Shown: positions 19,909 through 62,927, numbered from the stretch's first letter. The stretch is 64,000 bases of DNA from Nitrospirota bacterium (GCA_014859105.1 JACUUX010000006.1:1-64000); one strand, 5' to 3'. Numbers and translations are program-made. Notes: a model not told the origin generated them from the letters alone.

Positions 19909-19934
19909 GTATGCGTCACCTCCCTCTATCAGAA

Positions 19935-20951: not shown

Positions 20952-20998
20952 GATAGCTCTCCTTTCTTTGTTCAGTGTCAGTGTATAAACTAACGTTT

Positions 20999-24432: not shown

Positions 24433-26823
24433 CTAAATATCAAAATTCAAAGTGTCCCCGGGCTTAATTTCATATATCTTTCCGCGGAAACAAATCTTCG
24501 CTATTATGTCTCTGTATCTGCTTGAAGTAATGGCCAGTACCTCCGGTGTTATATTGATGTCAAACCAGTTTCCCCTGTACTTAATCTTTAACATGAGTCT
24601 TTGCAAACCTTCAGGAATTCTCGGATTCAGATGGAGCAGCTCTTTACAGAATTCCATGCCTATATAGCACCTCTGAAGAATATCAACGGTCCCGGACATT
24701 GCGCCCACATGTATACCTTCGTGTGTAGTGCCTCCCTGAATATCCGAGATATCACTTTCCAATGCCTTATTAAAAAGATTCCAGGAGCGCGGGCGGTCTG
24801 ACCTGGCAAGAACCCACGAGTGGACAATATTGCTCAGGGTCGAACCGTTGGAACTCCGCTTTAGATAATATTCTATGTTTTTAGGTATAATCTGCGGATC
24901 AAAATCGTACCCCATCTCTTTAAAGAGTTCGTGCAGTTCCTCTGAAGAAAAGAGATAAAAAAGCATGAGTATATCAGCCTGCTTTGAAGCCTTATAACGG
25001 TTGGTGGTGTCTCCTTCGGCCTCGAGAATACGGTCAAGACGCTGTATATTGCCGTATTTTTTGAGATAACCCTCCCAGTCGAACTCCACTAACTCATTGT
25101 ATCCCTCGAACTGGCTGATTATGCCGTCATCATGAAAGACAACCCGCATCTTATGGATAATGTCCTGCCACTGGTCGATCTCGGGTTTCTCTAATTCAAT
25201 GGTTTCCTGAAGGTCATGCCTCCTTTTCGGGTTCAGCTGGTTGAGGGCTTTAATAGCAGTGCGCAATACCCAGACAGTCATTACGTTTGTATAGGCATTG
25301 TTATTCAGCCCCGGTTTTTCAGAGTCCGGGTATTTATCATGATATTCATCGGGTCCCATGACACCGAGGATTTCGTAGCGGCCTAGTTCCCTGTTATAAG
25401 AGGTGATACTTGCCAGAAATCTGGCAATTTCAAGGATCATTTCTGTACCATATGTGGCCATAAATTCCAGATCGCCTGTTGTTTCGAAGTATTGCCAGAC
25501 GTTATAAGCTATGGCTGCATTGACATGACGCTGGAGGTGAGTGTTGTCAGGAAGCCAGCGGCCTGATTTGGGATTAAGATGAAGCTGCTGTGTTTCCTCC
25601 CTTCCGTTGCTTCCGCTCTGCCAGGGATAGAGAGCGCCTTTAAATCCCGACTCTCGGGCTGCAAGTCGCGATCTGTTTAATCGCCTGTATCTATAAAGCA
25701 GCAGAGATCTGGTCAGCATAGGAATTCTCAAATTGAGATATGGAAAGATAAACAATTCATCCCAGAAAATATGACCCCTGTATGCCTCGCCGTGCCAGCC
25801 CCTTGCAGGCACTCCTATGTCAAGATCAATCGAGTTTCTGGAAACTGTCTGGAGCAGATGAAAGATGTGCAGACGGAGAATCATCTGTGTACGGTCATTG
25901 TCCGATACCTGAATATCGCATCTGTCCCAGAGATGATCCCATTCCATAATATGGCTATCGAATAATCCCTTGAAATTGCCGGTGTGCTTGAGAGCCTCAA
26001 CAGCATCCAGAGCAGGTTCAGAAATGGAAAAGTCTTTAGATGTATAAAAAGAAACAACCTTTTCAATAGTTACAGGTTTATTCTTTACCAAGTCAATAAA
26101 AAACTCATGGGCAATATATCCGGGCTCCTCAATAAGCTTTCTTTCAACCTCTATCTGTTCACCCTCAAAATAAACACAGGTTCTTGCTGCCTCTGCTATG
26201 CAAATGAGGGACTGATTGGTTTCCACCAGCAAATAAATTATGTCATCATTGACTTCTCCGCTCTTCACAGGCTCAAGATGCTTGCTGTTTAACTGCCTAT
26301 AACGTTCAACCCCTGCATTGATGACAGTTCCATCCAGGGCGGAGAGTATTTGAATGCGGCCTGACCAATTCTCAGGTATGATTGTACTTTCAAGTGCTGC
26401 AAGATGCATATTTGCCATATGTACTAAACGCCGTTGAATCAAGGTTGATTCACGATTTTGTCTATCTCTGAATCTCACTGTTCTTGAGAGAACGCCATCT
26501 TTCATGTTGAGTTCCTTGCGATAGAAAAGAATGTCAACAGACATCAGATTAAACCAGTCACCGTCTTCAGGCCTGAATTTCGTGAGTAACCAGTTTGGCA
26601 TATTAACCAGATCTTCATTTTCGACCACACGGCCTGCAATATCTGTTTTCAGCCGGTTATAACCTCCCGCGAGATATGTGCCCGGATAATGAATCTCGTC
26701 AGCCTCGGATTCCGGCGCTGCACCACGTGTCGCGAAATATCCGTTTCCAAGTGTGCAAAGGGCTTCCCTTAAATTCTCTTTTGCAGGGTCGAAATCTTCA
26801 TATAAAAGTGTCCAGTTATTCAT
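24433..26823 (-). CDS. GH65 disaccharide phosphorylase (trehalose/maltose/kojibiose type)
   Basis: 796 residues with the GH65 plan: N-terminal beta-sandwich (about 1-270), linker, (alpha/alpha)6 barrel (about 310-730) and a small C-terminal beta domain. Signatures: NGYFATRGA, GHIFWDELFIFP (350-361) and the catalytic acid Glu493 in MGPDEYH. The enzyme splits an alpha-linked disaccharide with phosphate to glucose and beta-glucose-1-phosphate. Specificity cannot be read from the sequence, but the upstream fused beta-PGM/trehalose-phosphatase gene points to trehalose or trehalose-6-phosphate. It overlaps that gene by 8 nt. ATG at 26823 has AAAGGAGGTGG. Confidence 0.92.
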   Translation of the reverse strand: MNNWTLLYEDFDPAKENLREALCTLGNGYFATRGAAPESEADEIHYPGTYLAGGYNRLKTDIAGRVVENEDLVNMPNWLLTKFRPEDGDWFNLMSVDILFYRKELNMKDGVLSRTVRFRDRQNRESTLIQRRLVHMANMHLAALESTIIPENWSGRIQILSALDGTVINAGVERYRQLNSKHLEPVKSGEVNDDIIYLLVETNQSLICIAEAARTCVYFEGEQIEVERKLIEEPGYIAHEFFIDLVKNKPVTIEKVVSFYTSKDFSISEPALDAVEALKHTGNFKGLFDSHIMEWDHLWDRCDIQVSDNDRTQMILRLHIFHLLQTVSRNSIDLDIGVPARGWHGEAYRGHIFWDELFIFPYLNLRIPMLTRSLLLYRYRRLNRSRLAARESGFKGALYPWQSGSNGREETQQLHLNPKSGRWLPDNTHLQRHVNAAIAYNVWQYFETTGDLEFMATYGTEMILEIARFLASITSYNRELGRYEILGVMGPDEYHDKYPDSEKPGLNNNAYTNVMTVWVLRTAIKALNQLNPKRRHDLQETIELEKPEIDQWQDIIHKMRVVFHDDGIISQFEGYNELVEFDWEGYLKKYGNIQRLDRILEAEGDTTNRYKASKQADILMLFYLFSSEELHELFKEMGYDFDPQIIPKNIEYYLKRSSNGSTLSNIVHSWVLARSDRPRSWNLFNKALESDISDIQGGTTHEGIHVGAMSGTVDILQRCYIGMEFCKELLHLNPRIPEGLQRLMLKIKYRGNWFDINITPEVLAITSSRYRDIIAKICFRGKIYEIKPGDTLNFDI

Positions 26824-28393
26824 AACCACCTCCTTTACATAATGGAACAAGTTTCAAAAGGAATTCGCGGACCTCTTCCGGATTCTTAAGACTATAAGAA
26901 GCTGCTGTTTCATAAGGTTCATCCCAGACAACAATTCCTGTACCACGACCTTTGAGTGCCCTGAATGCGTCTTCATCTGTTACATCATCTCCGATATAAA
27001 AAGGCAGAACTTCACCTCCATCTAGTTTCAATTCGCTGAGCAAGGTAAGCAGCGCCCTCCCTTTATGCCAGTCAATATCCGGCTGGAGCTCGAATATCTT
27101 TTTGCCGTATGCCTTTCTAAGTTCAGGATAGCCTGAAGCGACTTTATCCACGATCTCTTCTACAAGTTCAATCTTCTCCGGATTTACGAGGCGATAATGA
27201 ATTGCAATGGCGAATTTTTTCCGTTCCACAAGCATTCCTTCTATAAAGCGGAGCTTTTCAGAAAGTTCTTTTTCTGCTTTATCGAGAACAGGCAGGAATT
27301 CTGTTCCTGCCTGACTCTTTATATTTAATCCCTCGGGCCCTGAGATATCGAAGCCATGACTGCCGGCATATACTATAGAGTCTATATTCACCATCCGCTG
27401 AACATCTTTGAGGTCACGTCCGCTTATTATTCCGACAGTGCAATAATGGGAAAGTTTTATCACAGCTTCCCGCATGTCTTCTGAGATGATAGCCCTGTCA
27501 GGTGTTTCGACTATCGGGGTGAGAGTTCCATCATAGTCAAGAAAAACGGCAATGCGTTTACCCATTGCCTGATTGGCAATATCATTAACGCTGTCCAGTG
27601 CGGAAGGCAGGGTATGAATTACTTCAATATCATCCTTCACGCCGATTTCGGAGAGGTCTTCGACAGCTGCATCAGCTCCGTTTTTCAAAAGGGATTCTTT
27701 GTCGCCTGTCCGAGCCACACCGATCACAAGGCCGAATTTACCGGCACGCCCTGCCTGAACACCTGAAATTGCATCTTCAATCACAACTGCACGTTCGGGT
27801 TTCACCTTTAGCTGTCTTGCTGCCTCGAGGAATATATCCGGCGCAGGCTTGCCCTTAATGCCCAGAACTTCAGAATCAACGCCATCTACCCTGACATCAA
27901 ACAAATCGGAAAGGTTTGCCGAATCAAGGATCAGGGCACAATTTTTACTCGAGGATATTATGGATGTTTTAAAGCCGTGCTTCTTCAGGCAATGTATAAG
28001 ATCAACTGTTGATCTGTAAACTTCAGCTCCATGTTCCTGAATGTACTTCAGAAAATAGTCATTTTTCAGATTTCCGAGGCCATTAATGGTTTCTGTGCCG
28101 GACAAATCATCTGATTGCCCTTCAGGCAGTTCAATGCCCCTTGACTGAAGGAAGCTTTTCACGCCGTCAAAACGCGGTTTTCCATCAACATAAAGGCGAT
28201 AATCTCTGTCAATATCAAAAGGTTGAAAAGACAAGTTCTGACGGGCAGCATATTGAGAGAGAAACTCATCAAACATCCTCTTCCACGCCTCTGCATGCAC
28301 GGTTGCGGTATCGGTGACCACTCCGTCAAGGTCAAAGATGACGGCATCAAAGGCTGTCTTTGATATTGTGTATGCCGTTTTTTTGTAAACCAT
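26816..28393 (-). CDS. Fused beta-phosphoglucomutase / trehalose-6-phosphate phosphatase
   Basis: 525 residues with two HAD domains. Residues 12-255 form a beta-phosphoglucomutase: DLDGVVTD (Asp21/Asp23), SSSKN, GKPAPDIF and VIEDAISGVQAG. Residues 279-515 form an OtsB-type trehalose-phosphatase: FLDYDGTLTP (Asp286/Asp288), GIISGR and GDDVTDEDAF. The first converts beta-glucose-1-phosphate to glucose-6-phosphate; the second removes phosphate from trehalose-6-phosphate. Both are complete at their catalytic motifs. No OtsA is present in the window. The 8-nt overlap with GH65 indicates one functional unit. Confidence 0.9.
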   Translation of the reverse strand: MVYKKTAYTISKTAFDAVIFDLDGVVTDTATVHAEAWKRMFDEFLSQYAARQNLSFQPFDIDRDYRLYVDGKPRFDGVKSFLQSRGIELPEGQSDDLSGTETINGLGNLKNDYFLKYIQEHGAEVYRSTVDLIHCLKKHGFKTSIISSSKNCALILDSANLSDLFDVRVDGVDSEVLGIKGKPAPDIFLEAARQLKVKPERAVVIEDAISGVQAGRAGKFGLVIGVARTGDKESLLKNGADAAVEDLSEIGVKDDIEVIHTLPSALDSVNDIANQAMGKRIAVFLDYDGTLTPIVETPDRAIISEDMREAVIKLSHYCTVGIISGRDLKDVQRMVNIDSIVYAGSHGFDISGPEGLNIKSQAGTEFLPVLDKAEKELSEKLRFIEGMLVERKKFAIAIHYRLVNPEKIELVEEIVDKVASGYPELRKAYGKKIFELQPDIDWHKGRALLTLLSELKLDGGEVLPFYIGDDVTDEDAFRALKGRGTGIVVWDEPYETAASYSLKNPEEVREFLLKLVPLCKGGGYE

Positions 28394-28409: not shown

Positions 28410-29297
28410 TCATGAATTATTGGACGCTTTTAAGATAATTCCCCATGCTTCCTCTGCAGTTTCAACATACTGGAAGAGATTGACATCTTCGGGAGAGATG
28501 GTTCCTTCCTCGACAAGTGCGTTAAAGTTTATGATTCGCTCCCAGTATTCCCTTCCAAATATCAGCACCGGTATGGGACTGATCTTCCTTGTCTGGATAA
28601 GAGTCAATGTTTCAAAAAGTTCGTCGAGAGTGCCGAAGCCTCCTGGAAAGACAACAAGGGCCTCTGCCCTGATAAGGAAATGCATCTTCCGGATCGCAAA
28701 GTAATGGAATTGAAAACAGAGTTCAGGGGTGATATAGTCATTGGGTTTTTGCTCAAAGGGAAGAACGATATTGAGGCCGATACTTTCAGCACCCGCTTCA
28801 TGTGCCCCGCGGTTTGCCGCTTCCATAATGCCAGGGCCCCCGCCTGTCACAACCACAAACTTAAAATTGTGTGATGCTTTATTGGCTTGAGAAATAAGGT
28901 AAGAAAGCCTTCTGGCATCATCATAATATTTTGAATTTGCTGCAATTCTGCGCAGTATCTTCGCCTTGCGTGCAAGCATCTCATCGGCCGGCTCTTCCCG
29001 GGCAGGTGCCTCTGCTTCTGCTAATTGTTTTTGTGCAACCTCCGGCTCCGGTATTCTAGCGCTTCCGAAAATAATAATGGTACTTTCGATCTTATGCTCT
29101 TTCAGTATCAACTCAGGTTTCAGTAATTCAATTTGCAGACGAACAGGTCTGAGATCATCCTTGAGCAGAAAGTCGGTGTCCTTATAGGCCAGCCGGTACG
29201 AAGGCGAAAGAGTCTGAGGGGTAGGCACATATAATTCAGCAGCCTGAGCATCTTCAACAGCTGTAGGGAATATCTCTTTTTTCTTTTTCTCTTTCAT
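28410..29297 (-). CDS. LOG-family Rossmann protein
   Basis: 295 residues. After a charged N-terminal extension of about 75 residues comes the LOG fold: TIIIFGSARI, VVTGGGPGIMEAANRGA, FHYFAIRKMHFL and the phosphate-binding PGGFGTLDE. Family members hydrolyse nucleoside monophosphates to base and ribose-5-phosphate (cytokinin-activating enzymes in plants; nucleotide hydrolases such as PpnN in bacteria). The ATG at 29297 is preceded by AAGGAGGTGATT. The gene is 16 nt upstream of the HAD fusion, likely the same transcript. Confidence 0.88.
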   Translation of the reverse strand: MKEKKKKEIFPTAVEDAQAAELYVPTPQTLSPSYRLAYKDTDFLLKDDLRPVRLQIELLKPELILKEHKIESTIIIFGSARIPEPEVAQKQLAEAEAPAREEPADEMLARKAKILRRIAANSKYYDDARRLSYLISQANKASHNFKFVVVTGGGPGIMEAANRGAHEAGAESIGLNIVLPFEQKPNDYITPELCFQFHYFAIRKMHFLIRAEALVVFPGGFGTLDELFETLTLIQTRKISPIPVLIFGREYWERIINFNALVEEGTISPEDVNLFQYVETAEEAWGIILKASNNS

Positions 29298-29419
29298 AAT
29301 CACCTCCTTCTGAAAATTTTGCGTAGCGGCTATTGCACCGGCGCCAACAGACGGGCGGCCCTCACAGCCAGACGGAACGGAAAACTCCTTTTATACACTC
29401 CTTTTCCTGTGCGCGCATC

Positions 29420-33640: not shown

Positions 33641-35008
33641 TTACTCTGTAATTTTTGAACCTTCCGAGCCTGCCGGATATTCCGCAAGCGGCACCTTATC
33701 CTGTGACCATACCTCGAGGATGGGCTCTACAATTCTCCATGATTCTTCTGCTTCGTCATCACGTATAAAAAGGTTCTGCCTGCCATCCATAATGTGCAGC
33801 AGAAGGCGCGCATATGCTGACAGACGCTGAGGGGTAAGTTTCCTTGTAAGTTCCGTGTACTTGAGGTCCAGGGCTTCGCAGGGAGTAGTGATATTTACAC
33901 CCAGAGCTATACGGTCGGGATTAAGCTCCAGCCTTATAATGTTTCTCCGGACTGTATCTTTGCCGAAAGCGAGATGTGGTAAGGGTTTGAAAGTAAGAAT
34001 AATCTCCATGCGATCTCCGGCCAATGCCTTGCCCGTACGAAGGATAAAAGGGACACCTGCCCATCTCCAGTTGTCAATCCAGAGGGTGACTCCGGCAAAG
34101 GTTTCTGTTCTGCGTTCGGGATCAATACCTTCCTCATCTATATAAGCAGGTACTTTATGTTCTCTGATACGACCTTTACTGTAACGGCCGCGCACAGTCC
34201 ATCGCCTGACCTCCTCTTCTGTCAGTCTCCTTACAGCACGCATTACATCTACCTTTCTGTCCCTGAAGTCACGCTCTGACAGGGTGCATGGAGGCTCCAT
34301 AGCTATAATGCAGAGCAACTGGAGGAGGTGATTCTGGATCATATCTTTGAGTGCTCCTACCTTATCATAATACGAGGCACGGCCTTCAAGCGTCAGGGTC
34401 TCGTCCCAGATTATTTCTACTTTTTCAATATGTAGACCGTTCCACAGAGGTTCAAATATGCGGTTGGCAAACCTGAGTCCGAGTATATTGTGAACGGTCT
34501 GTTCTCCGAGAAAGCTGTCAATGCGGAATACCATATGTTCGGGGAAATTCATATGGAGGAGGTGATTGAGGGTCTGTGCAGAAGAGATATCCTCGCCAAA
34601 AGGTTTCTCTATCACGATAGCGCTGCCTTCAGGTATGTTCATTGCGGCAAGGGCTTCAACTACAGGCCCGAAAAGACCGGGCGGGAGTGCGAGATAAAAA
34701 ACAGCAGGTTCTTTAACCGGGCCGAGGGCTTCAAGAATGTCTTCCCTGATAGAGGCATCGGCCTGCCGGTATTCGAGCATATCCAGCATGGCCTTTCGGG
34801 ATGAAGAAGTAATACCCGGAGACAGCCTTTCAAGTTTTTCATCGATATGCCTGCGGAAGGATTCGGTATCCCAGTCCTTGCGTGCTACACCAATGATGCT
34901 GAATCCGTCAGGAAGGTTATCCGCATCGTAAAGTTCTGATAAGGCAGGTATAAGATACCTGAAAGTAAGGTCGCCTGTTGCACCAAAAATTATGAAATGC
35001 CTTTTCAT
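33641..35008 (-). CDS. Divergent glucose-6-phosphate dehydrogenase-like protein
   Basis: 455 residues with the Zwf fold: GATGDLTFRYL (9-19), EKPFG (134-138), YYDKVGALKDMIQNH (213-227). The catalytic base His227 and Lys135 are kept, but the substrate-binding signature RIDHYLGKE reads RIDSFLGEQ (162-170) and the RKL lysine is Tyr18. Relative to the Leuconostoc enzyme this is Lys21 to Tyr, His178 to Ser, Tyr179 to Phe and Lys182 to Glu, so three polar or basic contacts to glucose-6-phosphate are lost. It may act on an unphosphorylated or otherwise different sugar. Its start overlaps the GH15 stop by 4 nt (ATGA). Family certain, substrate open. Confidence 0.85.
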   Translation of the reverse strand: MKRHFIIFGATGDLTFRYLIPALSELYDADNLPDGFSIIGVARKDWDTESFRRHIDEKLERLSPGITSSSRKAMLDMLEYRQADASIREDILEALGPVKEPAVFYLALPPGLFGPVVEALAAMNIPEGSAIVIEKPFGEDISSAQTLNHLLHMNFPEHMVFRIDSFLGEQTVHNILGLRFANRIFEPLWNGLHIEKVEIIWDETLTLEGRASYYDKVGALKDMIQNHLLQLLCIIAMEPPCTLSERDFRDRKVDVMRAVRRLTEEEVRRWTVRGRYSKGRIREHKVPAYIDEEGIDPERRTETFAGVTLWIDNWRWAGVPFILRTGKALAGDRMEIILTFKPLPHLAFGKDTVRRNIIRLELNPDRIALGVNITTPCEALDLKYTELTRKLTPQRLSAYARLLLHIMDGRQNLFIRDDEAEESWRIVEPILEVWSQDKVPLAEYPAGSEGSKITE

Positions 35009-36825
35009 TTTTTAACCTCTTTGATAAGACGGGAAAGATTTATACCACTGGAGATTAATCCCACATGACTGAACGCCTGTGGAAAGTTTCCAAGGAAAGC
35101 ACCGCTGCGGGGGTCGATTTCTTCCGGAAGCAGACCGAGGTGATTTACTCTACTGCAGAGCGAATCATACAGATACATCGCTTCGTCGAGACGGCCCTGT
35201 TTTGAAAGATTATCCACCAGCCAGAAGCTGCATAGCAGGAATGCTCCCTCATGTCCCTGCAATCCGTCCGGTGATTCATCGGGAATGTAGCGGTACAGAA
35301 GTCCGTTGCCGGCGCCGAGGCGTTCCATGATGGCATTTGTTGTAGCCACCATTTTTGGATGGTCAGCCTGAATAACACGCCTTAGCGCCAACGCTAAAAG
35401 ACTGGCATCCAATCCTCCACCTCCGAGGTGTTCGGTTATTGAACCGACATCCGTATCCCATGCCTCCTCAAGAATAGTCTTTTTAATTCGTTCCGCCTCG
35501 GCCCGCCAGCCACTGATATCACCGGGAAGGCTTAACCGCTCAGACAGACGTGCACCCCTGTCAAGTGCGACATGGCACATTGCAGCGGAATATGTAAACG
35601 GGCGCCCTGCTGTCCTTACCTCCCATATACCGTGGTCAGGGTTTTGCCATTCCATCCGCGCGCGCTCGACAAGACGTTGAAGCCGCGACCATAATGTCTC
35701 ATCGAGTTCCCCTCCCCACCTTGTCCACTGGTAGGCGCAGTCAAGTATTTCACCGTATACGTCATGCTGTTTCTGATCCGCAGCAGCATTTCCCCAGCGG
35801 ACAGGGGAGGATTTCCGGTACCCTTCGAGGTCAGAGTCTTCCCTCTCAGGAGGCGGCTGATGGCCGCGCAGATCGTAAAGCACCCGGGGACGTCCCTCCC
35901 TTTCAATCGCGTCGAGGACCCAGCCGAGAAAACTCGATGCCTCCCGGCTCAATCCGATCCTTTTGAGGGCATATACGGAAAAGGCTGCGTCGCGGATCCA
36001 CGCATATCGGTAATCCCAGTTACGCTGCCCGCCTATGGCCTCTGGCAGGGATGAAGTCGGCGCCGCTACTATAGCACCTGTCGGAGTATAATCAAGGAGT
36101 TTAAGAGTAATTGCGGAACGGCGGACCAGCGCTTCCTGCGGCCCATTATACTTGAAATGCTCTATCCATCTGTGCCATGCCCTGATGGTTTCTTTCAGAA
36201 TTCCTTCCGGTGAATAAAAGTGGTATCTGTGAGTGCCTCCTTCCCATCTCAAAATCGTATAGAAGTGTTTCCCTGCCTTAAGTTCAATGGCTGTTTTCAG
36301 TCCTTTCAGCGGGACCGAAGAGAAAAGATAGATATCCATTTCAGGCTGCAAAAGCCATTTGATCTGCAATCCTCCGCCGTATCTCTCTATTTCAGCGCCT
36401 CCCCTTGGTTCTATCTCAACACTAAGTTTTACATTCCCCTGAAGCACCTCCGCCATCCTGATGAGTTCCGATCGTCCGGCCGGTGCATCCTCTGTAAGAT
36501 CAGTACCTGAACGAAGGGTCAGAACATCGGTAATCTTCACCAGCCCCGAAGAGCTCCTCATCTCCGTAACGAGCACACCGGTGTCAGATTCATAATACTG
36601 GGAGGTCTCAATGATGCCTTCGGGAGCTATACTGAAAGCCCCTCCCTTTTTTGAATCAAGTAGACTGCAGAACATCGGTTGAGAATCAAAGTAGGGTATG
36701 CACATCCATGATATGGCACCGTCAATTCCTACAAGGGCTGCGGTGCTGCAGTCGCCAATCAGGCCATGGTCTTTTATAGGTACATAGCCGTCAATCCTTT
36801 CTACTGGCTTAAAGGTTGCTTTCAT
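35005..36825 (-). CDS. GH15 glucoamylase/trehalase-family hydrolase
   Basis: 606 residues. N-terminal beta-sandwich (about 1-230) with the motif LIGDCSTAALVGIDGAISWMC, then the (alpha/alpha)6 barrel: GGQRNWDYRYAWIRDAAFS, WEVRTAGRPFTYS and the C-terminal LLPEEIDPRSGAFLGNFPQAFSHVGL with the catalytic base Glu. Substrate is an alpha-glucan or trehalose; bacterial members of this subgroup include trehalases. Product is free glucose. ATG at 36825 sits 17 nt inside the end of the cyclase gene; its stop overlaps the Zwf-like start by 4 nt. No signal peptide, so it is cytoplasmic. Confidence 0.88.
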   Translation of the reverse strand: MKATFKPVERIDGYVPIKDHGLIGDCSTAALVGIDGAISWMCIPYFDSQPMFCSLLDSKKGGAFSIAPEGIIETSQYYESDTGVLVTEMRSSSGLVKITDVLTLRSGTDLTEDAPAGRSELIRMAEVLQGNVKLSVEIEPRGGAEIERYGGGLQIKWLLQPEMDIYLFSSVPLKGLKTAIELKAGKHFYTILRWEGGTHRYHFYSPEGILKETIRAWHRWIEHFKYNGPQEALVRRSAITLKLLDYTPTGAIVAAPTSSLPEAIGGQRNWDYRYAWIRDAAFSVYALKRIGLSREASSFLGWVLDAIEREGRPRVLYDLRGHQPPPEREDSDLEGYRKSSPVRWGNAAADQKQHDVYGEILDCAYQWTRWGGELDETLWSRLQRLVERARMEWQNPDHGIWEVRTAGRPFTYSAAMCHVALDRGARLSERLSLPGDISGWRAEAERIKKTILEEAWDTDVGSITEHLGGGGLDASLLALALRRVIQADHPKMVATTNAIMERLGAGNGLLYRYIPDESPDGLQGHEGAFLLCSFWLVDNLSKQGRLDEAMYLYDSLCSRVNHLGLLPEEIDPRSGAFLGNFPQAFSHVGLISSGINLSRLIKEVKK

Positions 36826-37480
36826 AGAAAGGCTCCCTTTTCTTTCCAAGCACCGCCCTTGCAGGGGCGCCGTCACTGTTGAGAATCTTCAGCGGAAGAC
36901 ATATAAGTTCGTATATTCCCCCTTTAACTTCCGATAGGTCAAGACCTTCTATAATCCAGATACCTGCTTCAAGGAGAACACGGTGCACTTCTTTGCCATT
37001 TTTCCCATATCCTCCTACTGAGAGATAGTCAATACCTACTGTCCTGACAGCTTTTTCAGCAAGAAAATGTGCTGCTCCGGTAGAAATGTATATAAAGTCC
37101 TCGATGAAGGAATCGGTCTTCCAGCACCTTTCGGAATTTCCGGTCTTGAACAGTATCCTTTCCCCACTGCATATGCTATGAGCTACAAGTTCTTCTGGTT
37201 TGATGGATTCATGATCAAAAATTTCTATTACCCGTGCAGCACCTATTGTTGCATCAAAAGGCATCTCATCGAGCCCTTTACCTGTTTGTATGAAATGAAG
37301 CGGTGCATCCATATGAGTCCCGGAATGCGAACCCATAGAAATAGCCGAGAGATTAGCCTTGTCTCCCCGTTCCATGTCTAAGGTCATTTCTATAAGAAAT
37401 GGCGGGTCGCCAGGCCAGTGAACCATTCCGGTCTTTAATGTTACTGAAATATCGATCCATGCCCTTTCCTCATTCAACAC
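36809..37480 (-). CDS. Cyclase/kynurenine-formamidase-family metal hydrolase
   Basis: 223 residues of the PF04199 family: metal motif HSGTHMDAPLHF (52-63), early TLKTGMVHWPGDPPF and a later GIDYLSVGGYG stretch. Members hydrolyse amides or lactone-like bonds with a divalent metal. The start is GTG with GGAGGTG 8 nt upstream. It overlaps the GH15 gene by 17 nt, giving a coupled cyclase-GH15-Zwf-like unit. A role in opening the lactone made by the Zwf-like enzyme is possible but unproven. Confidence 0.82.
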   Translation of the reverse strand: MLNEERAWIDISVTLKTGMVHWPGDPPFLIEMTLDMERGDKANLSAISMGSHSGTHMDAPLHFIQTGKGLDEMPFDATIGAARVIEIFDHESIKPEELVAHSICSGERILFKTGNSERCWKTDSFIEDFIYISTGAAHFLAEKAVRTVGIDYLSVGGYGKNGKEVHRVLLEAGIWIIEGLDLSEVKGGIYELICLPLKILNSDGAPARAVLGKKREPFYESNL

Positions 37481-46204: not shown

Positions 46205-49200
46205 TCAATCATTAAGCCTTTCCATAACGGTTACAGGAAAATTTAAAAAGACCTCGGAAAGAGCTAAAGATGTAGCATTTTTATAATTCCGGGCAGTTAG
46301 AGTTTCACCGGTAAATATATTGCAGTACTTTGTTCCGTCCTCTGCAAAAGGCACTACTATAAAAGAATCATTCCAGACTGCCTTGCCAAGTGGAAGGTCC
46401 TCCGGTTGGGATATGAGCTTTGTAAAAAATCTCGGAGCAGCAATTACTATTTCTCTATTCGCTATCCTTCTCGCAAAGGCACATACATTGTCTGCCTTCC
46501 CTTCCATAACCTCGAGGGGCAAATACTCTCCTCTGTCAAACAGGGCCCTTTTTTCCCTGCGATAATTGAGAGACTTATAAAGCAAATAAAGCTTTATCAT
46601 CCCGTTTTCCCTATTTATGGTTAATTCCCTGGCCAGATCCTGAAGAGGGATTTCTGACTGGCGACTCCTTAATTTTTGCAGCATTTTCTTTCTGACTTCA
46701 TAATCGACGGGCCTGCGGTTGTCCGGATCAACGAGACTGAAATCCCAGATGTCGGTGCCCTGATAAAAATCGGGGACACCCGGGGAAGTTATTTTCAGAA
46801 GCGTCTGTGAAAGGGAATTATATAAACCATAATTCGAGATAATTTTCTGAAAGCTTGTGAAATCTTTAAGGAATTGGTTGTCGGATTTATTATTCATAAT
46901 TTTATTAATGAAAATCTGCAGAGCATCTTCATAAATGGTATCCGGATTTATCCAGCTTGTATTTACCTTTGCTTCCCTTATAGCCTTTAACATATAACTT
47001 ATGATTCTAATTTTAAAATCTTCATATTCTTCTTCATTTTTGATTTCTATTGGCCATGCGCCAATAAGTGTTTGGTATAACAGATACTCTTCATTGCGGT
47101 CAGGCACAGTCCGTCCGTCAACAAGTACTTTTGCTTTTTTATTCAGACGGCTCCAGTAAATCGACCTTTTTTTCCACTCATCAGGAATCTCTGAAAGAAC
47201 ATTTATCCTTGCCCTGACATCCTCGCTTCGTTTAGAATCATGTGTGGAAGATGCTATTAATGCATGCGGCCAGAATTTCAATCTCTCTATATTCATTCCA
47301 TGAAATGCTTCAAGGGATATACCGAATCTGTCGGGACTGCCTCCCACTTCATTGAGTGAAACCAGGCGGTTATAAACATAAAAAGAGGTATCCTCAAGCC
47401 CCTTGGCCATAACCGGGCCTGTAATCTTCTGCCATCTCATTACAAAATCAAGCCATTCATTTTTTTCGTCATCGCCGAAATTTTCGGGAAATTTAAGCAA
47501 AAGTACATCCTTCAGGAAATCAAAGATCAAGGTACTTATGGCCGGATTGGTTCTTTTTGCTTTTGACACAGCAGCCTCTACATACTGTCTATCTTTATCT
47601 TTTACTTTCATTGAATTTGTATAGGTTCTGTAAACAGGGAAAAATGCAATAACTTCTATAATTACGCTTGTAAGACTGTTTAAGGTAAAGTCTCTTGTAT
47701 GCCTGTTTTTCTCGGAAATCCGGTTGAGAAAATGCCCGAGAGAATTTATCTCGCTTGACATGGCTACTTTCATTATTAACTTCTTCTTCTCATATACAAC
47801 ATCCTGGAAATTTATCTTCAACTTAGTGAATTTTGAGTATATATCATCAAATGCTTTAGCACTACCCGTTTCAACAAAAATACCATTTAAGGCATTCAGA
47901 AAGACATAACCCGTAGTGCTGAAGATAGGCCAATCTTCAGGCATTCTCTCGCCTTTTGAGAGTATCTTCTCGCCTATAATATAGAAAGGTTTAAATTGCG
48001 GATCTTTAGATAAAAATTCATCATACTCATTAAGTATTTCCTCTTCTAAATCTGAGTGTTCATAAGGTTGCGAAATCTCCTTTTTCACTCCCTCAGAATA
48101 ACTGAGTCGTGTCTGGAGAAAACACTTGCGCTGTAATTTATGAAAGTACCCGGATGGATCATATAAGCCGTCAGGGTGATCTATCCTTAATCCGGTTACC
48201 TTTCCCTCCTTGATAAGTCTCATTAAAAGTCTGTGCGTATCCTCGAATACAGCAGGATTCTCCATCCTTATTGCTGCAAGACTGTTAATATCGAAAAATC
48301 TTCTGTAATTTATCTCTTCTGTAGCAACACGCCAATAGGATAGTCTGTAAGCCTGTATATTGAGGAGTTCGTCGAGGAGGTCGAAGCTCCCCGGATCGCC
48401 TTTTATTCCGTTAAATATGCGGACATTTTCATTAATAAAATCTTTTATTTCGGAGCTTTCATTATATAGAGTCCAGAGTCGCTTTTTGATTATCTCTTTT
48501 TCCCTGCATCTCTCTACAACTTTTTCCGGGTCTGTTTCCATGTATGGGGGAAGATGGTCGAGTGCGGTTATAATGCTCAGGAGTTCAACATAATGAGGGT
48601 TATCAGAAGATAAAATATTTTCGAGTTCGTCAATACGATGTTTCAATATAAAAATATATGTCTTGGGGATTATGGGGAATTTGTTTTCAAAATAATAAAG
48701 AAAAAATGCACCCTCTTCAAAAGCTAAACTCAATTCCTGTGCCTCAAGTATATTTCCATACTGGTCGCCCAAAACAGGCAGAAGTATCTTGTTTTTGAGC
48801 TCTTTCTTTAATGGACCCCAGTCGATATCAAAATAATCTGCGTAAATAGAACTTGGACCATTCTCAAGTACATCCATCCACCAGATATTATCCTTACTCT
48901 CGATACACATGTGATTTGGAACTATATCAATTACCTGGCCCATGTCATATTTCTGAAGGTCTGCGACTAATTCATTATATTCTTCCTCTGTGCCGATCTC
49001 GGAATTTAGAGAGTTATGGTCAACAATGTCGTACCCGTGGGGACTCCCCGCTTTTGCCTTAAAATAGGGAGAGGCATAAATATCACTTATGCCAAGATCA
49101 TAAAGATAACCGATGATGTTCCTTGAATCGGGAAATCTGAAATTTCTATTGAATTGTAATCTATAGGTTGAAGCTGGAATTCTTGGCAGTAAAAGGACGT

Positions 49201-49210
49201 CTTTTTCCAC
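46205..49210 (-). CDS. treY: Malto-oligosyltrehalose synthase TreY
   Basis: 1001-residue GH13 enzyme that turns the reducing end of a malto-oligosaccharide into a trehalosyl unit. Signatures: PASTYRLQFNRNFRF at the N-terminus, YASPYFKAKAGSPHGYDIVDH, DIVPNHM, GLRIDHPDGLYDP with the nucleophile Asp, and SSTHDSKRSEDVRARI. The length fits a large TreY. I chose GTG at 49210 (VEKDVLL) because AAAGGAGGTGTCAG lies before it; the six-codon longer frame starts with TTG inside that site. It lies 14 nt downstream of the GH57 gene. Confidence 0.93.
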   Translation of the reverse strand: MEKDVLLLPRIPASTYRLQFNRNFRFPDSRNIIGYLYDLGISDIYASPYFKAKAGSPHGYDIVDHNSLNSEIGTEEEYNELVADLQKYDMGQVIDIVPNHMCIESKDNIWWMDVLENGPSSIYADYFDIDWGPLKKELKNKILLPVLGDQYGNILEAQELSLAFEEGAFFLYYFENKFPIIPKTYIFILKHRIDELENILSSDNPHYVELLSIITALDHLPPYMETDPEKVVERCREKEIIKKRLWTLYNESSEIKDFINENVRIFNGIKGDPGSFDLLDELLNIQAYRLSYWRVATEEINYRRFFDINSLAAIRMENPAVFEDTHRLLMRLIKEGKVTGLRIDHPDGLYDPSGYFHKLQRKCFLQTRLSYSEGVKKEISQPYEHSDLEEEILNEYDEFLSKDPQFKPFYIIGEKILSKGERMPEDWPIFSTTGYVFLNALNGIFVETGSAKAFDDIYSKFTKLKINFQDVVYEKKKLIMKVAMSSEINSLGHFLNRISEKNRHTRDFTLNSLTSVIIEVIAFFPVYRTYTNSMKVKDKDRQYVEAAVSKAKRTNPAISTLIFDFLKDVLLLKFPENFGDDEKNEWLDFVMRWQKITGPVMAKGLEDTSFYVYNRLVSLNEVGGSPDRFGISLEAFHGMNIERLKFWPHALIASSTHDSKRSEDVRARINVLSEIPDEWKKRSIYWSRLNKKAKVLVDGRTVPDRNEEYLLYQTLIGAWPIEIKNEEEYEDFKIRIISYMLKAIREAKVNTSWINPDTIYEDALQIFINKIMNNKSDNQFLKDFTSFQKIISNYGLYNSLSQTLLKITSPGVPDFYQGTDIWDFSLVDPDNRRPVDYEVRKKMLQKLRSRQSEIPLQDLARELTINRENGMIKLYLLYKSLNYRREKRALFDRGEYLPLEVMEGKADNVCAFARRIANREIVIAAPRFFTKLISQPEDLPLGKAVWNDSFIVVPFAEDGTKYCNIFTGETLTARNYKNATSLALSEVFLNFPVTVMERLND

Positions 49211-49224
49211 CTGACACCTCCTTT

Positions 49225-51669
49225 TCAATCTGCTGGCAGCACTGATGAAATATTAAAAAACAACATTTCCCCCAGATATTTGAACGTTGCCACCCATATT
49301 TTTGCATTCTCGTCACCCTGCCTTGATTTGAAAAGAAAGTCCCTGTATGATGCCTTCACAATTTTGTAATAGACATTCTGGCTCTGCCAGTAATTTATTT
49401 CAATAGGTAATGATTTAATCAGCTCCAGCATTTTCTGTATATCAAAAAGCAAGTTAATATCAGATGGATTTTGATACAGGTTATCCATCAACTTCTTTAC
49501 TCTGCCCCTCACCATAAATTCAATTTCAACCGAATCCAGAGGTACTTTCCATTTTTTCATTTCAATAATTATATTCTGAACCCTCTCCACATCTATTACT
49601 TCATCCTGAAAAGCCTTTTTAATATCAATATTGAGTATGAACTCTGCTGCTGAATAAAATGCTTTTTTTACAGGCATTCCAATATCCTGCAGAAAACCCA
49701 TCAAAATCCTGTTATTCTCATACATTCGGCGATATATATCCTCAAACTCTTCGAGTGTCTTGCTGATGAGAAAATTAAGGATGTTACGTTGCTGATCCTT
49801 GAATAAATTTATAAGAGAATAACTGTGTGTGCCAAAATGTGCATCCATAAGCCTGACAATGTCGGCAAAAGCACCTTTTTCAAACGTTGCAATAATCTCC
49901 TCTTTCATCGATTGATAAGCTTCGGGTCCGATAAAAGTACGCACACCACCGTTTAAGGCATGTCCACCGAAATGCATAACACAGAAACTTGTCAATTCTG
50001 ATTCACCTGTTATATTGGAAGAGACCGAGACTTTCCCCACAGCAAGTTTTGCAGTGCCGGCCTCTATTTTCTGATAATCTTCTCTTTTAACACAATAACT
50101 GTAAATAGTTGTGTCATCAATATATTCTTCGAAAAGGGAACTCAAAGCATAATGAGCAGCAACTTTCTTGAGATCAATCATAGCCGGTTTTACAAACTTT
50201 TCGAATATTTTAGCTCCGTTTTCATACTCAGGAATATTGCTTTTTGCTATCGAAAGCCGCATTTTAAAGGCATCCTCAAGGCCGTCTTTGTATAGATCAT
50301 CCGATAATTGTATTGCCCTGCCTGCATATTGCATCACCTGTACTGTTTCAATACCTGAAAGCTCATCAAAAAACCAGCCGCAGCTCGTATACATCAACAT
50401 TGCATGTCTCTGCATTTCAAGCAACTTTAATACATTGACCCGATCTTCTATAGAAAGGTTTCTCAGGGAGTGCTCGATGAGAAATCCCTTTACTGAGTTC
50501 TCGGAACGGTCGAGGGTTACATAAATATAATCATCCCTTGCTTTCCACGGATCTTTAAGATATTGCCTGGCGAGCGTTTCGTAGATAGAAGACAAGCGGT
50601 CCCTTAGCCAATCAAAGGCTTCACGGAGCGGCTTTCTCCATGCCTGATTCCATCCTGAATGACCGCCGGAATTACATCCGCAGTCGCTCCTCCACCGTTC
50701 AATTCCATGTATACAGCTCCATGAAGAATTCTCAAAGATCTGGACTTCATGTGTCGGAGGGTGCTTTTCGAGATATTCACCATAACTCGCAAGCCTTGCC
50801 ATTCCGTTCGTCTCCATATAATTAAGGGCATAGGCGAGTGCCATATCACCGAACCTATAATGATGTCCGTATGTCTCACCATCGGTTGCGACGTGGAGGA
50901 TCTGCGGCCAATCCATCGAGTCAGAAAAACCGGAAAGAAGACGATGTGCAAATTCTTCCCCTCTTTTTAAAAGATCATGGAATGCAATCGCCTGGGAAAT
51001 AGGGCCGTCATAAAAGAAAATATTTATTGCCCTGCCGGATGGCAATCTGCAAAGATAAGGCCTTGTAGGATCGACCATCGAATCGCTGACGTCTTTCCAT
51101 CTGCCGGTGCCGATTTTCCTTGTTAAAGAGGCCTGTCGCGGAGCAAGAATGGTGAACTTAATACCGGATTCAGCGAGAATCTCGAGCGCCTCGATATCTA
51201 CTGCAGTCTCCGGAAGCCACATGCCTTCAGGGAACCGCTTAAATCTGTGTTCGAAATCTCTGATACCCCATATCACCTGTGTCCGCTTGTCTCGCGTATT
51301 AGCTAAAGGCATAATAAGGTGATTATATGCCTGTGCAATTGCATTACCATGACCTGAACGCCATTGGATACCCTGTCTGTCTGATTCAAGTATAGCCTGA
51401 TAGATTTCCGGTTTATTCTTTTCCATCCATGAAAGCAGGGTTGGTCCGAAGTTAAAGCTCATTTTCGCATAATTGCTCACAATATCGAGTATCCTGCTTT
51501 CAGCATCAAGTTTTCTGGCTGCGGAGTTCGGGGCGTAACATTCGGCATTGACCCTTTCATTCCAGTCATGATAGGGATATGCAGAATCCTGTATCTCTAT
51601 AGCCTCAAGCCATGGATTCTCCCTCGGAGGCTGATAAAAGTGCCCATGTATGCAGACATATCTTTCCAT
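49225..51669 (-). CDS. GH57 glycoside hydrolase with DUF3536
   Basis: 814 residues. N-terminal GH57 catalytic domain with YVCIHGHFYQPPRENPWLE, GHGNAIAQAYNHLIMPLAN and WLPETAVDIEALEILAESGI; the C-terminal DUF3536 region (about 480-800) is helical. GH57 includes amylases, 4-alpha-glucanotransferases, amylopullulanases and branching enzymes; with DUF3536 the exact activity is not established. Placed just before treY, it may trim or transfer glucan chains that feed TreY. No signal peptide, so cytoplasmic. Confidence 0.87.
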   Translation of the reverse strand: MERYVCIHGHFYQPPRENPWLEAIEIQDSAYPYHDWNERVNAECYAPNSAARKLDAESRILDIVSNYAKMSFNFGPTLLSWMEKNKPEIYQAILESDRQGIQWRSGHGNAIAQAYNHLIMPLANTRDKRTQVIWGIRDFEHRFKRFPEGMWLPETAVDIEALEILAESGIKFTILAPRQASLTRKIGTGRWKDVSDSMVDPTRPYLCRLPSGRAINIFFYDGPISQAIAFHDLLKRGEEFAHRLLSGFSDSMDWPQILHVATDGETYGHHYRFGDMALAYALNYMETNGMARLASYGEYLEKHPPTHEVQIFENSSWSCIHGIERWRSDCGCNSGGHSGWNQAWRKPLREAFDWLRDRLSSIYETLARQYLKDPWKARDDYIYVTLDRSENSVKGFLIEHSLRNLSIEDRVNVLKLLEMQRHAMLMYTSCGWFFDELSGIETVQVMQYAGRAIQLSDDLYKDGLEDAFKMRLSIAKSNIPEYENGAKIFEKFVKPAMIDLKKVAAHYALSSLFEEYIDDTTIYSYCVKREDYQKIEAGTAKLAVGKVSVSSNITGESELTSFCVMHFGGHALNGGVRTFIGPEAYQSMKEEIIATFEKGAFADIVRLMDAHFGTHSYSLINLFKDQQRNILNFLISKTLEEFEDIYRRMYENNRILMGFLQDIGMPVKKAFYSAAEFILNIDIKKAFQDEVIDVERVQNIIIEMKKWKVPLDSVEIEFMVRGRVKKLMDNLYQNPSDINLLFDIQKMLELIKSLPIEINYWQSQNVYYKIVKASYRDFLFKSRQGDENAKIWVATFKYLGEMLFFNISSVLPAD

Positions 51670-51837: not shown

Positions 51838-53670
51838 TTAAACCTTTTCTTTCATATATACTGCCAGACTCTGCCCCCTTAGGTTTATCTCCTCGCCTTG
51901 ACCTATTTTTCCCGGTAGAAATGTTCCAGGCCCGTTCCATTCTTTTTCTGACGAATCAAAAATTTTCTTCCAGACCCCTTCCGGCAGAGAGAAGTTAATA
52001 ATTCTCCTGTCATCCCTGTTAAAGTTCGACATTATGAATACGTGGCTTTCTTCCTTCCATCTGCTGATCAGTAAAATCCTGTCTTCCCCGAATCCATAAG
52101 CATCAAGCCTTTCTCTGTCAAGAGCCGAAAGGGCAGGGATTTCTCTTCTCAATCTTATTAGTGATTTATAAAAATTTAATAATACTCTGTGATTGCCTGA
52201 GTTTCTCTTTTCCCATTTTATTCTGGATTTCAGAAATGTTTCCTCACTCTGGGGGTCCGGCGGCTCTGCCCTCCATTCGAACGCCTTGAATTCTTCTTTC
52301 CTTCCTTTCCTCACGGCTTCGATTAAATCAGGATCAGAATGACTTACAAAATATAGAAACGGTATGTCTTCTCCGTACTCCTCACCCATGAAAAGAAGCG
52401 GTATATATGGTGAAAGCAAAACTGTACCGGCTGCAAGTTTCAGCGACTCAAAAGAGACAAGATTTGTTAACCTCTCTCCAAACATCCTGTTTCCTGTCTG
52501 GTCATGATTCTGAGAAAAGACAATAAATTGCCGGGCAGTCCTGTCCTTCGAAGAATTGCCGTGGTTCCTCTTTCTGTATTCAGAATATTGTCCTGAATAA
52601 ACAAATCCCTCCATTAAAGATTTTTTCAGGTTATCCATTCTGCCAAAATCAATATAATATCCATTTTTCTCACCGGTAATAAGCGTATGTAATGCATGAT
52701 GAAAATCGTCACACCATTGAGCATCAAAACCATATCCACCCGATTCTTTCGGTCTGATAACTTTTGAATCGTTTAAATCACTTTCTGCTATCAGGTAATA
52801 TATCCTTCCTTCACTTAATGAAAACTCCCTGACCCTGTCTGCAAGTTCCTGCAGAAATGGTGTGGCACTCAGATCCGAGATGCCATGTATTGCATCAAGC
52901 CGCAGGCCATCCATATGGTAATTTTTAAACCAGTGCAGGGCATTCTCTATGAAAAAGTTTCTTACCTCATTACTGTAAGCCCCATCAAAATTTACAGCCA
53001 TACCCCATGGTGTTCTGTATTTATCAGTAAAATACGGTCCGAAATCCCATAAGTAGTTGCCCTCTGGTCCGAGGTGATTATAAACAACATCAAGTATAAC
53101 TGCCATACCCATCCTATGACATTCATTAACAAGTTTTTTAAGACCATCAGGTCCTCCGTAGGAGTTTTGCACGGCAAAAAGATAGGTGCCGTCATACCCC
53201 CAGTTTCTTTCACCCGGGAATTGTGCTACAGGCATTATCTCAATAGCATTTATTCCTGTTTCTTTAATATCGGGAAGGCGGTTGATTATGGAATCAAAAG
53301 TGCCTTCAGGAGTAAAAGTGCCTACATGCAGTTCATAAATTATCATTTCAGAGAGTGCAATTCCTCTCCAACTTCCATCTTCCCAGTGAAAAGAGTTATG
53401 GTCGATTAATTGAGAAGGGCTATGCACTCCCTGTGGTTGATAGTGAGATACAGGGTCAGGTCTTTCAGTTTGATTATTCAGATAATAGAAATATAAAGTG
53501 TCCGGGTAAACCCCTTCTGCAACTTTCTTCCAATAGCCTTTCCTGTCTTTTTCCATTTGAATAACGTGCTGTTCGGGAGAGGCTATTTTTAATTTAACAC
53601 TATCCAGAAATGGTGCCCAGACCACAAATTCACACCTCCCGGTATCTGTGTAATTTGCCCCGACTTTCAT
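51838..53670 (-). CDS. treZ: Malto-oligosyltrehalose trehalohydrolase TreZ
   Basis: 610 residues, GH13. It releases free trehalose from the product of TreY. N-terminal early-set domain (about 1-90), then YELHVGTFTPEGTFD, EIMPVAQFPGERNWGYDG, GLRLDAIHGI with the nucleophile Asp, LIAESDLND with the acid Glu and FSQNHDQTGNR. The first base of its ATG is the last base of the glgB TAA, so translation is coupled. treY lies about 2.6 kb further on, split from it by GH57. Confidence 0.95.
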   Translation of the reverse strand: MKVGANYTDTGRCEFVVWAPFLDSVKLKIASPEQHVIQMEKDRKGYWKKVAEGVYPDTLYFYYLNNQTERPDPVSHYQPQGVHSPSQLIDHNSFHWEDGSWRGIALSEMIIYELHVGTFTPEGTFDSIINRLPDIKETGINAIEIMPVAQFPGERNWGYDGTYLFAVQNSYGGPDGLKKLVNECHRMGMAVILDVVYNHLGPEGNYLWDFGPYFTDKYRTPWGMAVNFDGAYSNEVRNFFIENALHWFKNYHMDGLRLDAIHGISDLSATPFLQELADRVREFSLSEGRIYYLIAESDLNDSKVIRPKESGGYGFDAQWCDDFHHALHTLITGEKNGYYIDFGRMDNLKKSLMEGFVYSGQYSEYRKRNHGNSSKDRTARQFIVFSQNHDQTGNRMFGERLTNLVSFESLKLAAGTVLLSPYIPLLFMGEEYGEDIPFLYFVSHSDPDLIEAVRKGRKEEFKAFEWRAEPPDPQSEETFLKSRIKWEKRNSGNHRVLLNFYKSLIRLRREIPALSALDRERLDAYGFGEDRILLISRWKEESHVFIMSNFNRDDRRIINFSLPEGVWKKIFDSSEKEWNGPGTFLPGKIGQGEEINLRGQSLAVYMKEKV

Positions 53671-55621: not shown

Positions 55622-58600
55622 TTATTCCTCCATAAGCTGTAAAATACCTTTTAAGGATATTATCACCCAGTCCGGCCTGTTATTCAATTCATAGCCGACT
55701 TCATAGACTGCCTTTTCGAGGAGAAATATCTTGAGAAACATGCCGATGTCATCTGTTCCATCAGGAATGAAAGAAGCTCCTTTCGCTGTATCAAGGTATG
55801 ATTTGATGAATACGCCGCCGGCACAAGCATACCAGAGGTCGGCCCATGGCTCGAGGCTGGAAATGTCATCTGACCTGAAAAGAAAATGCCTGAAAAGAAA
55901 GGTATACGCTGCATAATGGAAAGATCTGACCATGCCTGCAATATCCACAACAGGTGACCTCTTCAACCTCCTTTCACTTAAGGACCTGGCTGGTTCCCCC
56001 TCAAAGTCAATTATAATAAAATCATTTCCGGTATAAAGGACCTGGCCGAGATGATAATCCCCGTGAATTCTTGTCTTCACAGCGGGCAACTTCTTCCTGA
56101 GCAAATCTTTGAAACGCTCCATGATTTCTTTTTCGAAACCCAATACCTTATTGGCAACCTCCCTTGCATCGTCGGGTAAATTCTTCAGATTCTTCTTCAG
56201 TTGCTCGAATACCCTTTTCGTAAGGCTCTGCATGGACTGATACAAAGATCTCTGATAAATGACCGATAAGGGTTCCGGGGAGAAGTCCGGATCATCATGG
56301 TCAGACGACAGCGACAGGTGCAGTTCTGCGGTCCTTCTGCCCAAAAGGGAAACCATTTCGAGATAGTCGCCCCCTATTATCTCCTGCAGTACAGATGGCA
56401 TATTTTGAAATTCCACCTGTAAAAGCGAGGCCGGCACCTTCGGTATTTCCTGTATTTCTGTTTTTTTGGAAAGTACTCTCTCGAAATATCTCTCCACCGA
56501 ATCAAGCGTATAAGTCCATGCGTCTCCATGGTTCGGGACAAAAGACTGAAGTATCCCTGCAACTACCGGTTCAGAATCTGGCATTTTGTATTCGACCGCA
56601 CCTGCAAATTGTGCAATGTTTGAGAAATGAGCTCTTTCAGTAAGGAACCTCCCGATCTCAAGATCTGGATTTGTTCCTTCGCCGAGCCTTCTGAAAAGTT
56701 TCAAGAAAAGTTTATTCCCGTATATAATTGACGTGTTGCTCTGCTCTGCCTTGAGAACATTGGATTTTTCGGGTAAAGGCTCATCCCCTTTAATCTTTTT
56801 AAAAAACCTTCCCGGTTGGGCAACAAGGACCCCTTTCATGCCCTTTATACTCTGTCTGCCTGCTATCAGACTGAATATGTCTTTATGGAAATTCGGACTG
56901 TACACGCCATCATACAGAATCCCCTCTCCTTCCCCGCACCTTATACGGGAGACTATTATATATGGCTTTTCCTCAATGACCTTCTTGGCGTCTTCGCTGG
57001 GCAGAAAAGAAAGCGGCATAAGATAGACGTCCGGCAGTCCTTCGTTGTAATAGACCTTTAAAAAGATGAGCCGCGTTTCTAAAGACGACTTGCCGACAGT
57101 AATGTTTTCTATGATTTTTGTGCGGTGCACCCTGCGGGCTTTACTGCCAAACCACCTGCATCCTGTTATATACAAGGGGAAAACTTCATTCTCGAGTTTC
57201 TCTTTCGATTTCCCGAGAAAAACATTTTCCCAGCCACCGGCCACATTCAATTCAGGGACTGGTGTGAATAAATCTCCAAAACGTATTATCTCCTCTTCTT
57301 TCTGCAACGAGAACCAGAAGTAGTCATAAAAACCCATGGTGAGTACATAAGGGGAATCCTTGATAACAGGGAACTTGTTTCTGCTGAAGATCTCCTCGGG
57401 TGTATAACCGGAAAACCCTGACAGATCGAGCTCAACCACCTGGGAGTATCGTGACAGGTTAACAACCACGAGCATGATCTCTTCACCATACTGACGGATA
57501 AAAGCGAGGACCTTGGGATTTTCGGGCAAGAGGAATTCAATTGATCCCCTTCCAAATGCCAAAAATCTTTTTCTCATCGAAATAATCCGCTTCATCCACC
57601 ATAAAAGGGAAGACTGGTTCCTCTCTTGATTCTCCACATTGACGGTCTCATAGTGATACTCGGGGTCTATTATGACAGGAAGATAAAGTTTCTGGGGGTT
57701 TGCCCCCGAGAAACCGGCGTTTCTGTCAGCACTCCACTGCATCGGCGTTCTCACACCGTTTCTGTCACCGAGGTAATAATTGTCTCCCATGCCGATCTCA
57801 TCTCCGTAATAAATTACCGGAGTGCCCGGCAGTGAAAAAAGCAGGAAGTTCATGAGTTCTATCTTTCTCAGATGATTACCGAGCAGTGGAGCCAGTCTCC
57901 TGCGTATGCCGAGATTTATCCTTGCAGTAGGGTCTTTAGCATAGACCTTATACATATAATCCCTTTCTTCATCGGTCACCATTTCAAGAGTGAGCTCATC
58001 GTGGTTTCTTAGAAAAAGAGCCCACTGGCATATATCCGGTACCGAAGGGGTCTGCTCAAATATATCGATTATGGGAAACCTGTCCTCCATCCACAAGGAC
58101 ATGAATATTCTGGGCATTAATGGAAAATGAAAAGCCATATGGCATATATCACCATTTCCTAAATAATTCACAGCATCCTCGGGCCATTGATTAGCTTCTG
58201 CGAGGAGTATCCTGTTTTTGAACTTTCTGTCTACATGCGCCCTCAGTTTTTTCAGGAATGCATATGTTTCGGGAAGATTTTCACAATTTGTATTTTCCCT
58301 TTCGAACAGATAAGGCACTGCGTCCAGCCTCAGGCCGTCAACACCCATCGAAAACCAGTAGTCTATTACACGAAGGACTGCTTTTTGCACCCGGGGGCTG
58401 TTATAGTTAAGGTCAGGCTGATGTGAATAAAAGCGGTGCCAGTAATATGCCTTTGCGACAGGGTCCCATGCCCAGTTTGACGTCTCGAAGTCATTGAAAA
58501 TTATCCTTGCATCTTTATATTTTTCAGGGGTATCACTCCATACATAAAAATCCTTCCATGAGGCATCGGCCTTTGACTTTCTCGATTTTTGAAACCATAG

Positions 58601-58930
58601 ATGCTGGTCTGATGTATGGTTCAGGACAAGCTCAGTTATCACCCTGATCCCCCTTCTGTGGGCCTCGCGAAGGAACTCTCTGAAATCCCTCAATGTACCG
58701 TAATGGGAATGGACATTAAAATAATCAGATATGTCATAGCCGTCGTCCCTTAGCGGGGACGGATAAAACGGAAGCAGCCAGAGAACGTTTATTCCGAGTC
58801 CTTCAAGATAGTCAAGTTTTTTTATAAGGCCATTCAAATCACCTATGCCATCGCTGTTATTGTCATTAAATGCCTTTATATGAATCTCGTATATTATGGC
58901 ATCCTTATACCATAGGGGCGTATCTTCCAT
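55622..58930 (-). CDS. treS: Trehalose synthase fused to maltokinase (TreS-Mak)
   Basis: 1102 residues. Residues 1-550 are TreS (GH13): [32 protein letters not shown] (nucleophile Asp), LLAEANQW and FLRNHDEL. Residues from about 570 are the aminoglycoside-kinase-like maltokinase, with [13 protein letters not shown] (catalytic Asp) and [13 protein letters not shown] (metal Asp). The fusion isomerises trehalose to maltose and phosphorylates it to maltose-1-phosphate, the GlgE substrate. I chose ATG 58930 (MEDTPLW) by family start and an AAAGGGA site; an ATG at 58951 is possible. It lies 3 nt before glgB. Confidence 0.94.
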
Positions 58931-58964
58931 GTATATTTCCCTTTTAGGCATCTAAAGTTTTCCC

Positions 58965-62924: not shown

Positions 62925-62927
62925 AAA

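Follow-up and report, generated by a model that had tools for sequence, protein, structure and literature searches.

What does a gene for a fused beta-phosphoglucomutase (bPGM) and trehalose-6-phosphate phosphatase (TPP), overlapping a gene for a GH65 glycoside phosphorylase, do in a cell with no OtsA in view? The question is raised by a locus of a Nitrospirota bacterium (GCA_014859105.1), analysed within a stretch of 64,000 nt (JACUUX010000006.1:1-64000), referred to below as the window. Both genes lie on the minus strand, the bPGM-TPP fusion of 525 aa at 26816..28393 and the GH65 protein of 796 aa, a predicted trehalose-6-phosphate (T6P) phosphorylase, at 24433..26823. The ORF coordinates bear out the gene pair described in the first-pass annotation as well as its overlap of 8 nt (26816..26823, minus strand), formed by the stop codon TAA of the fusion and the start codon ATG of the GH65 gene. 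The latter starts at the ATG at 26823 and ends at 24433, a TTG at 26850 being a possible alternative start; a strong Shine-Dalgarno sequence, AAAGGAGGTGG, is located directly 5' of the ATG, within the fusion gene. On the upstream side a gap of 16 nt separates the fusion from the end of a gene for a LOG/TIGR00730-family Rossmann protein (28410..29303, minus strand), and these two genes probably form one transcription unit. A gene of the LOG/TIGR00730 family is also present upstream in another module locus (L110, 268-1101).

The domains of both proteins were assigned by Pfam and NCBIfam profile searches, with scores compared to the cut-offs. The bPGM domain of the fusion (approximately aa 15-252), with residues D21, D23, T29, H33, R74, K110, S147, S149, K182, E206 and D207, passes the subfamily model TIGR02009 (172.7 vs. 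a cut-off of 153.35 bits) and falls short of the strict bPGM equivalog TIGR01990 (120.7 vs. 189.4 bits), which may be due to a longer cap that it shares with its closest solved relative, 8h5s, annotated as a beta-PGM. The TPP domain (approximately aa 278-516), containing the motifs DYDGTL, SGR, GSHG, HYR, KG and GDDVTDED, scores 169.9 bits with the Pfam model Trehalose_PPase, above the cut-off, and passes the T6P-phosphatase equivalog TIGR00685 (178.9 vs. 68.05 bits). The catalytic residues of the bPGM (both Asp, His, Lys, Glu and Asp) are invariant or nearly so among 100 homologous domains, as are the TPP motifs among 94, so both active sites are apparently under selection; the complete catalytic motifs that had been attributed to both HAD domains are thus present and conserved among homologues. 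In the PDB, the TPP half (aa 184-515) is best matched by 5gvx, a protein of 430 aa labelled trehalose-phosphate phosphatase; its alignment also covers the end of the window bPGM domain, and the N-terminal domain of 5gvx is suggestive of a bPGM relic.

The N-terminal, central and C-terminal domains of the GH65 protein were all recognized above the Pfam cut-offs, at 229, 421 (GH65m) and 38.6 bits. Six positions, numbered 64, 392, 394, 402, 416 and 585 in CsKP, separate the GH65 specificities, and a GH65 enzyme of Caldithrix abyssi with the combination DQGQDE (CaGP, GH65 subgroup 22) makes T6P from beta-glucose-1-phosphate (beta-G1P) and glucose-6-phosphate (G6P) in vitro (PMC8537180). When the window GH65 was aligned with 92 homologues as well as CsKP, a glucosylglycerol phosphorylase and PDB entry 9lb6, it showed exactly this fingerprint (D71, Q402, G404, Q412, D426 and E603), as did 9lb6, its closest solved relative (E 1.6e-138). 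Judged by the criteria of PMC8626586 for the acid, the phosphate site and the general base of hydrolases, its general acid is E493 and its phosphate site consists of S661-T662, H705, R341 and R349, a set identical in 9lb6 and differing from CsKP in Ser-Thr for Ser-Ser and Arg for Lys. A GH65 hydrolase was ruled out, the general base of such hydrolases being absent and the acid and phosphate site being phosphorylase-like. Also ruled out were maltose, kojibiose and trehalose phosphorylases, DQGQDE standing in place of KV[MF]NES, EEAPxx or TRIGPP; CsKP, aligned here as EEAPWE, fits EEAPxx, the kojibiose pattern of PMC8537180, so the specificity call is unaffected. The PDB names 9lb6 a 'trehalose-6-phosphate hydrolase', but the motif it carries and its position in the tree next to a lactobacillar GH65 preceding pgmB suggest a T6P phosphorylase. 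The same activity (EC 2.4.1.216) is predicted for the window GH65, and the specificity for maltose or kojibiose weighed in the first-pass annotation finds no counterpart in its sequence.

The absence of OtsA extends beyond the window, as no GT20 match was obtained in the bacterium's own genome, listed as 100% complete, in which no PTS EIIC gene was found either. It contains a single GH65, one TPP and one clear bPGM, with two further HAD matches at 22-24 bits. No other source of T6P having been found, the conserved TPP, in this genome as in others without OtsA, would lack a substrate unless GH65 made T6P, and since a second GH65 is missing here, the bPGM must supply beta-G1P from G6P. With neither a maltose or kojibiose motif in GH65 nor an otsA gene found, reverse phosphorolysis pulled by the phosphatase is therefore the best-supported reading, and we consider it reasonably likely that the gene pair serves nucleotide-sugar-free trehalose synthesis via a reversed T6P phosphorylase. 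The bPGM domain would convert G6P to beta-G1P, GH65 running in reverse would join beta-G1P to a second G6P, yielding T6P and Pi, and the TPP domain would hydrolyse T6P to trehalose and Pi, rendering the net reaction irreversible. In sum, 2 G6P would give trehalose and 2 Pi, one NTP cheaper than by OtsAB, and the product might protect the cell under stress or feed the TreS-Mak-GlgE branch. The T6P intermediate and the T6P phosphatase would be shared with OtsA-OtsB synthesis, whereas GT20 is missing from this genome and the donor would be beta-G1P instead of UDP- or ADP-glucose.

Flow in the opposite direction, with GH65 phosphorolysing T6P to beta-G1P and G6P, bPGM feeding glycolysis and TPP acting as an exit for surplus T6P, has a precedent in Lactococcus lactis. 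There, the substrate enters by the PTS, the flow is catabolic and no TPP takes part (partly PMC12125463). A GH65 with DQGQDE is paired with beta-PGM in this type of system, as in the window, and the lactobacillar relative (L148, 9lb6 clade) likewise has GH65 next to pgmB. Degradation is the physiological role characterised for T6P phosphorylase in L. lactis and the only one given for the enzyme in a 2025 review, both of which count against synthesis (PMC12125463). In contrast to L. lactis, however, the window module has its TPP fused to bPGM and resides in a genome where no PTS EIIC, and hence with OtsA also lacking no T6P source, was found. For a degradative phosphorylase a linked TPP would mean a loss of T6P, but the TPP has invariant residues and is kept in genomes without OtsA; a degradative module thus appears quite improbable to us.

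Several points nevertheless count against synthesis. The bPGM equilibrium favours G6P, the genome already possesses TreYZ and TreS, OtsA is present in most carriers, and otsA is found beside the module in five loci, where the module could use OtsA-made T6P. As to the phosphorylase step, synthesis of T6P in vitro with a T6P phosphorylase reached a molar yield of 93%, consistent with a favourable equilibrium, although the paper gives its constant of 760 once for the overall reaction and once for the last step (PMC13121652).

The other trehalose routes of this genome are located approximately 18-34 kb from the module, all on the minus strand: the independent route of TreY, malto-oligosyltrehalose synthase (46205..49228), and TreZ, malto-oligosyltrehalose trehalohydrolase (51838..53670), a TreS-maltokinase fusion linking trehalose and maltose-1-phosphate (55622..58951), and the maltosyltransferase GlgE, which makes alpha-glucan from maltose-1-phosphate (58965..60953). 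GlgB is encoded in the same region of the window. GlgC is encoded on the same contig (74655-75767) and GlgA on another. Trehalose is therefore obtainable from glycogen, the module being an additional route; GlgA, GlgC and TreYZ rule it out as the sole de novo source, and the absence of OtsA alone creates no need for it, as TreY-TreZ, TreS and GlgA/GlgC offer other routes. A GH15 protein with a TREH_N domain (35005..36876, minus strand), scoring below the NCBIfam equivalog cut-offs, is a possible trehalase. The segment 44943-60953 constitutes a compact trehalose/alpha-glucan island with genes for GT2, TreY, GH57-DUF3536, TreZ, GlgB, TreS-maltokinase and GlgE; it is adjoined by a MalK-type ABC transporter (61833-63743), with GlgC further along the contig.

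When genome contigs were scanned with the bPGM-TPP fusion alone as the query, at least 80 loci were obtained, whose record titles span at least 15 phyla. Of the 80 matches listed, 72 have GH65 linked to the fusion, as the next gene on the same strand in 54 and as part of a single chain in 18, so the link between bPGM-TPP and GH65 is not due to chance. The median intergenic distance of the split pairs is -4 nt (n = 65 measured, plasmid and same-phylum loci included). TPP and GH65 are tied together in varied architectures, i.e., bPGM-TPP|GH65, bPGM|TPP|GH65, bPGM-TPP-GH65, TPP-GH65 and TPP|GH65 (a vertical bar separating genes), and bPGM-GH65 without TPP also occurs. In the GH65 tree the window protein groups with module members from Thermodesulfobacteriota and one from a genome of the same order (75% identity), and the three-domain single-chain fusion requires at least three label changes on well-supported branches. 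Within the phylum the module is found without GT20 in the own genome, in G150, G098, G193 and G206, and in the closed single-contig G114, the absence from drafts being weaker evidence than that from G114; G154 and G145 have both the module and GT20.

Absence of OtsA is not a rule for carriers, as GT20 is present in 39 of 50 sampled carrier genomes. All 11 carriers without it have exactly one TPP, that of the module, and a GH65 with DQGQDE or a one-letter variant, in one case outside the module locus. A further TPP accompanies OtsA in 24 of the 39 remaining genomes, and the module TPP is the only one in 15. In five loci (L103, L115, L118, L121 and L124) the module has otsA as its immediate, co-oriented neighbour, which suggests a T6P pool common to OtsA and the module in some lineages. 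Such co-occurrence, in some cases within the same operon, also speaks for degradation. It is likewise in accord with a reversible T6P valve, whose direction would be set by the levels of Pi and G6P: trehalose would be made under stress, T6P carbon would be recovered at high Pi, and OtsA-made T6P would be drained in OtsA-bearing species. Phosphorolysis is reversible and the module provides the sole TPP of those 15 genomes, but the last step, through TPP, is irreversible, no sign of regulation between directions was seen here, and genomes without OtsA are fitted no better than by plain synthesis, so we regard such a valve as unlikely. The synthesis of trehalose by reversed T6P phosphorylase, as put forward in the first-pass annotation, is accordingly upheld in part: the fingerprint and the missing otsA favour it, while TreY-TreZ, TreS and GlgA/GlgC are present in the same genome and, with OtsA in most carriers and sometimes in the same operon, the direction is one that we infer. 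Among the OtsA-bearing carriers, two acidobacterial loci (L085 and L094) have bPGM-TPP without GH65 and with OtsA nearby, and in G241 bPGM-TPP is present and no GH65 was found in the genome at all, a further point against synthesis.

The architecture itself is already known from OtsB1 (Rv2006) of Mycobacterium tuberculosis, which we take to contain the three domains of the module. Nocardia bPGM-TPP-GH65 proteins agree with the window pair in all three domains and in their order; the Nocardia/OtsB1 type is a single chain, whereas two overlapping genes are found in the window, and the actinobacterial clade has SQGQDE in contrast to DQGQDE. M. tuberculosis has OtsA and OtsB2, unlike the present genome, which is without OtsA. 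In PMC11046441, OtsB1, of 1327 aa, is described as a protein of unknown function that is reported to be without T6P phosphatase activity and can be deleted without an obvious phenotype, which counts against synthesis by the module. This reported inactivity and the deviating position in actinobacterial members would also agree with a GH65 using another acceptor phosphate, the phosphatase then releasing an alpha-glucoside other than trehalose. That is very unlikely in our judgement, given that the full fingerprint equals that of an assayed T6P phosphorylase and that the TPP domain passes the T6P-phosphatase equivalog cut-off given above.

To our knowledge, the accepted bacterial trehalose routes are OtsAB, TreYZ, TreS, TreP and TreT, and the route of bPGM, reversed T6P phosphorylase and TPP is not among them. 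No synthetic role for the module was found in the open-licence papers searched, and an earlier description may exist elsewhere. Whether this combination constitutes a widespread, undescribed trehalose pathway bypassing nucleotide sugars, and also represents the ancestral function of OtsB1, seems to us evenly balanced. If so, many genomes with an orphan otsB annotation would encode all steps of a trehalose route that saves one NTP relative to OtsAB, of relevance to energy-limited anaerobes and to stress physiology, and for OtsB1 the proposed role of the module provides a testable hypothesis of function. In Leptospirillum ferriphilum an NaCl-induced otsB is associated with trehalose accumulation (PMC6828654); the published primer for this gene matched none of eight module loci or 396 genomes of the phylum, so its membership in the module is unsupported.

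It is also worth mentioning the surroundings and relatives of the module. Genes for GAPDH, P-type ATPase, PPDK, phosphoketolase or glucan phosphorylase occur near it in the window (17179-21035) and in L040, L042, L106, L117 and L125; this neighbourhood is sometimes plasmid-borne and resembles a mobile stress or sugar-phosphate island. A Nitrobacter hamburgensis plasmid (L042, 7239-12392) encodes a single-chain bPGM-GH65 with the T6P-phosphorylase motif and no TPP, directly followed by genes for a HAD-IIB phosphatase of another type and a GH130-family protein. Three actinobacterial plasmids (L143, L145 and L150) carry bPGM-GH65 without TPP and with the deviating motif HQGPDE, the substrate of which may differ, next to genes for a UbiB-type kinase, type II GAPDH or phosphoketolase. 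Finally, a Nocardia-like three-domain protein is encoded at a locus titled Bifidobacterium breve (L133), which probably stems from a metagenome bin that is mixed or wrongly labelled.
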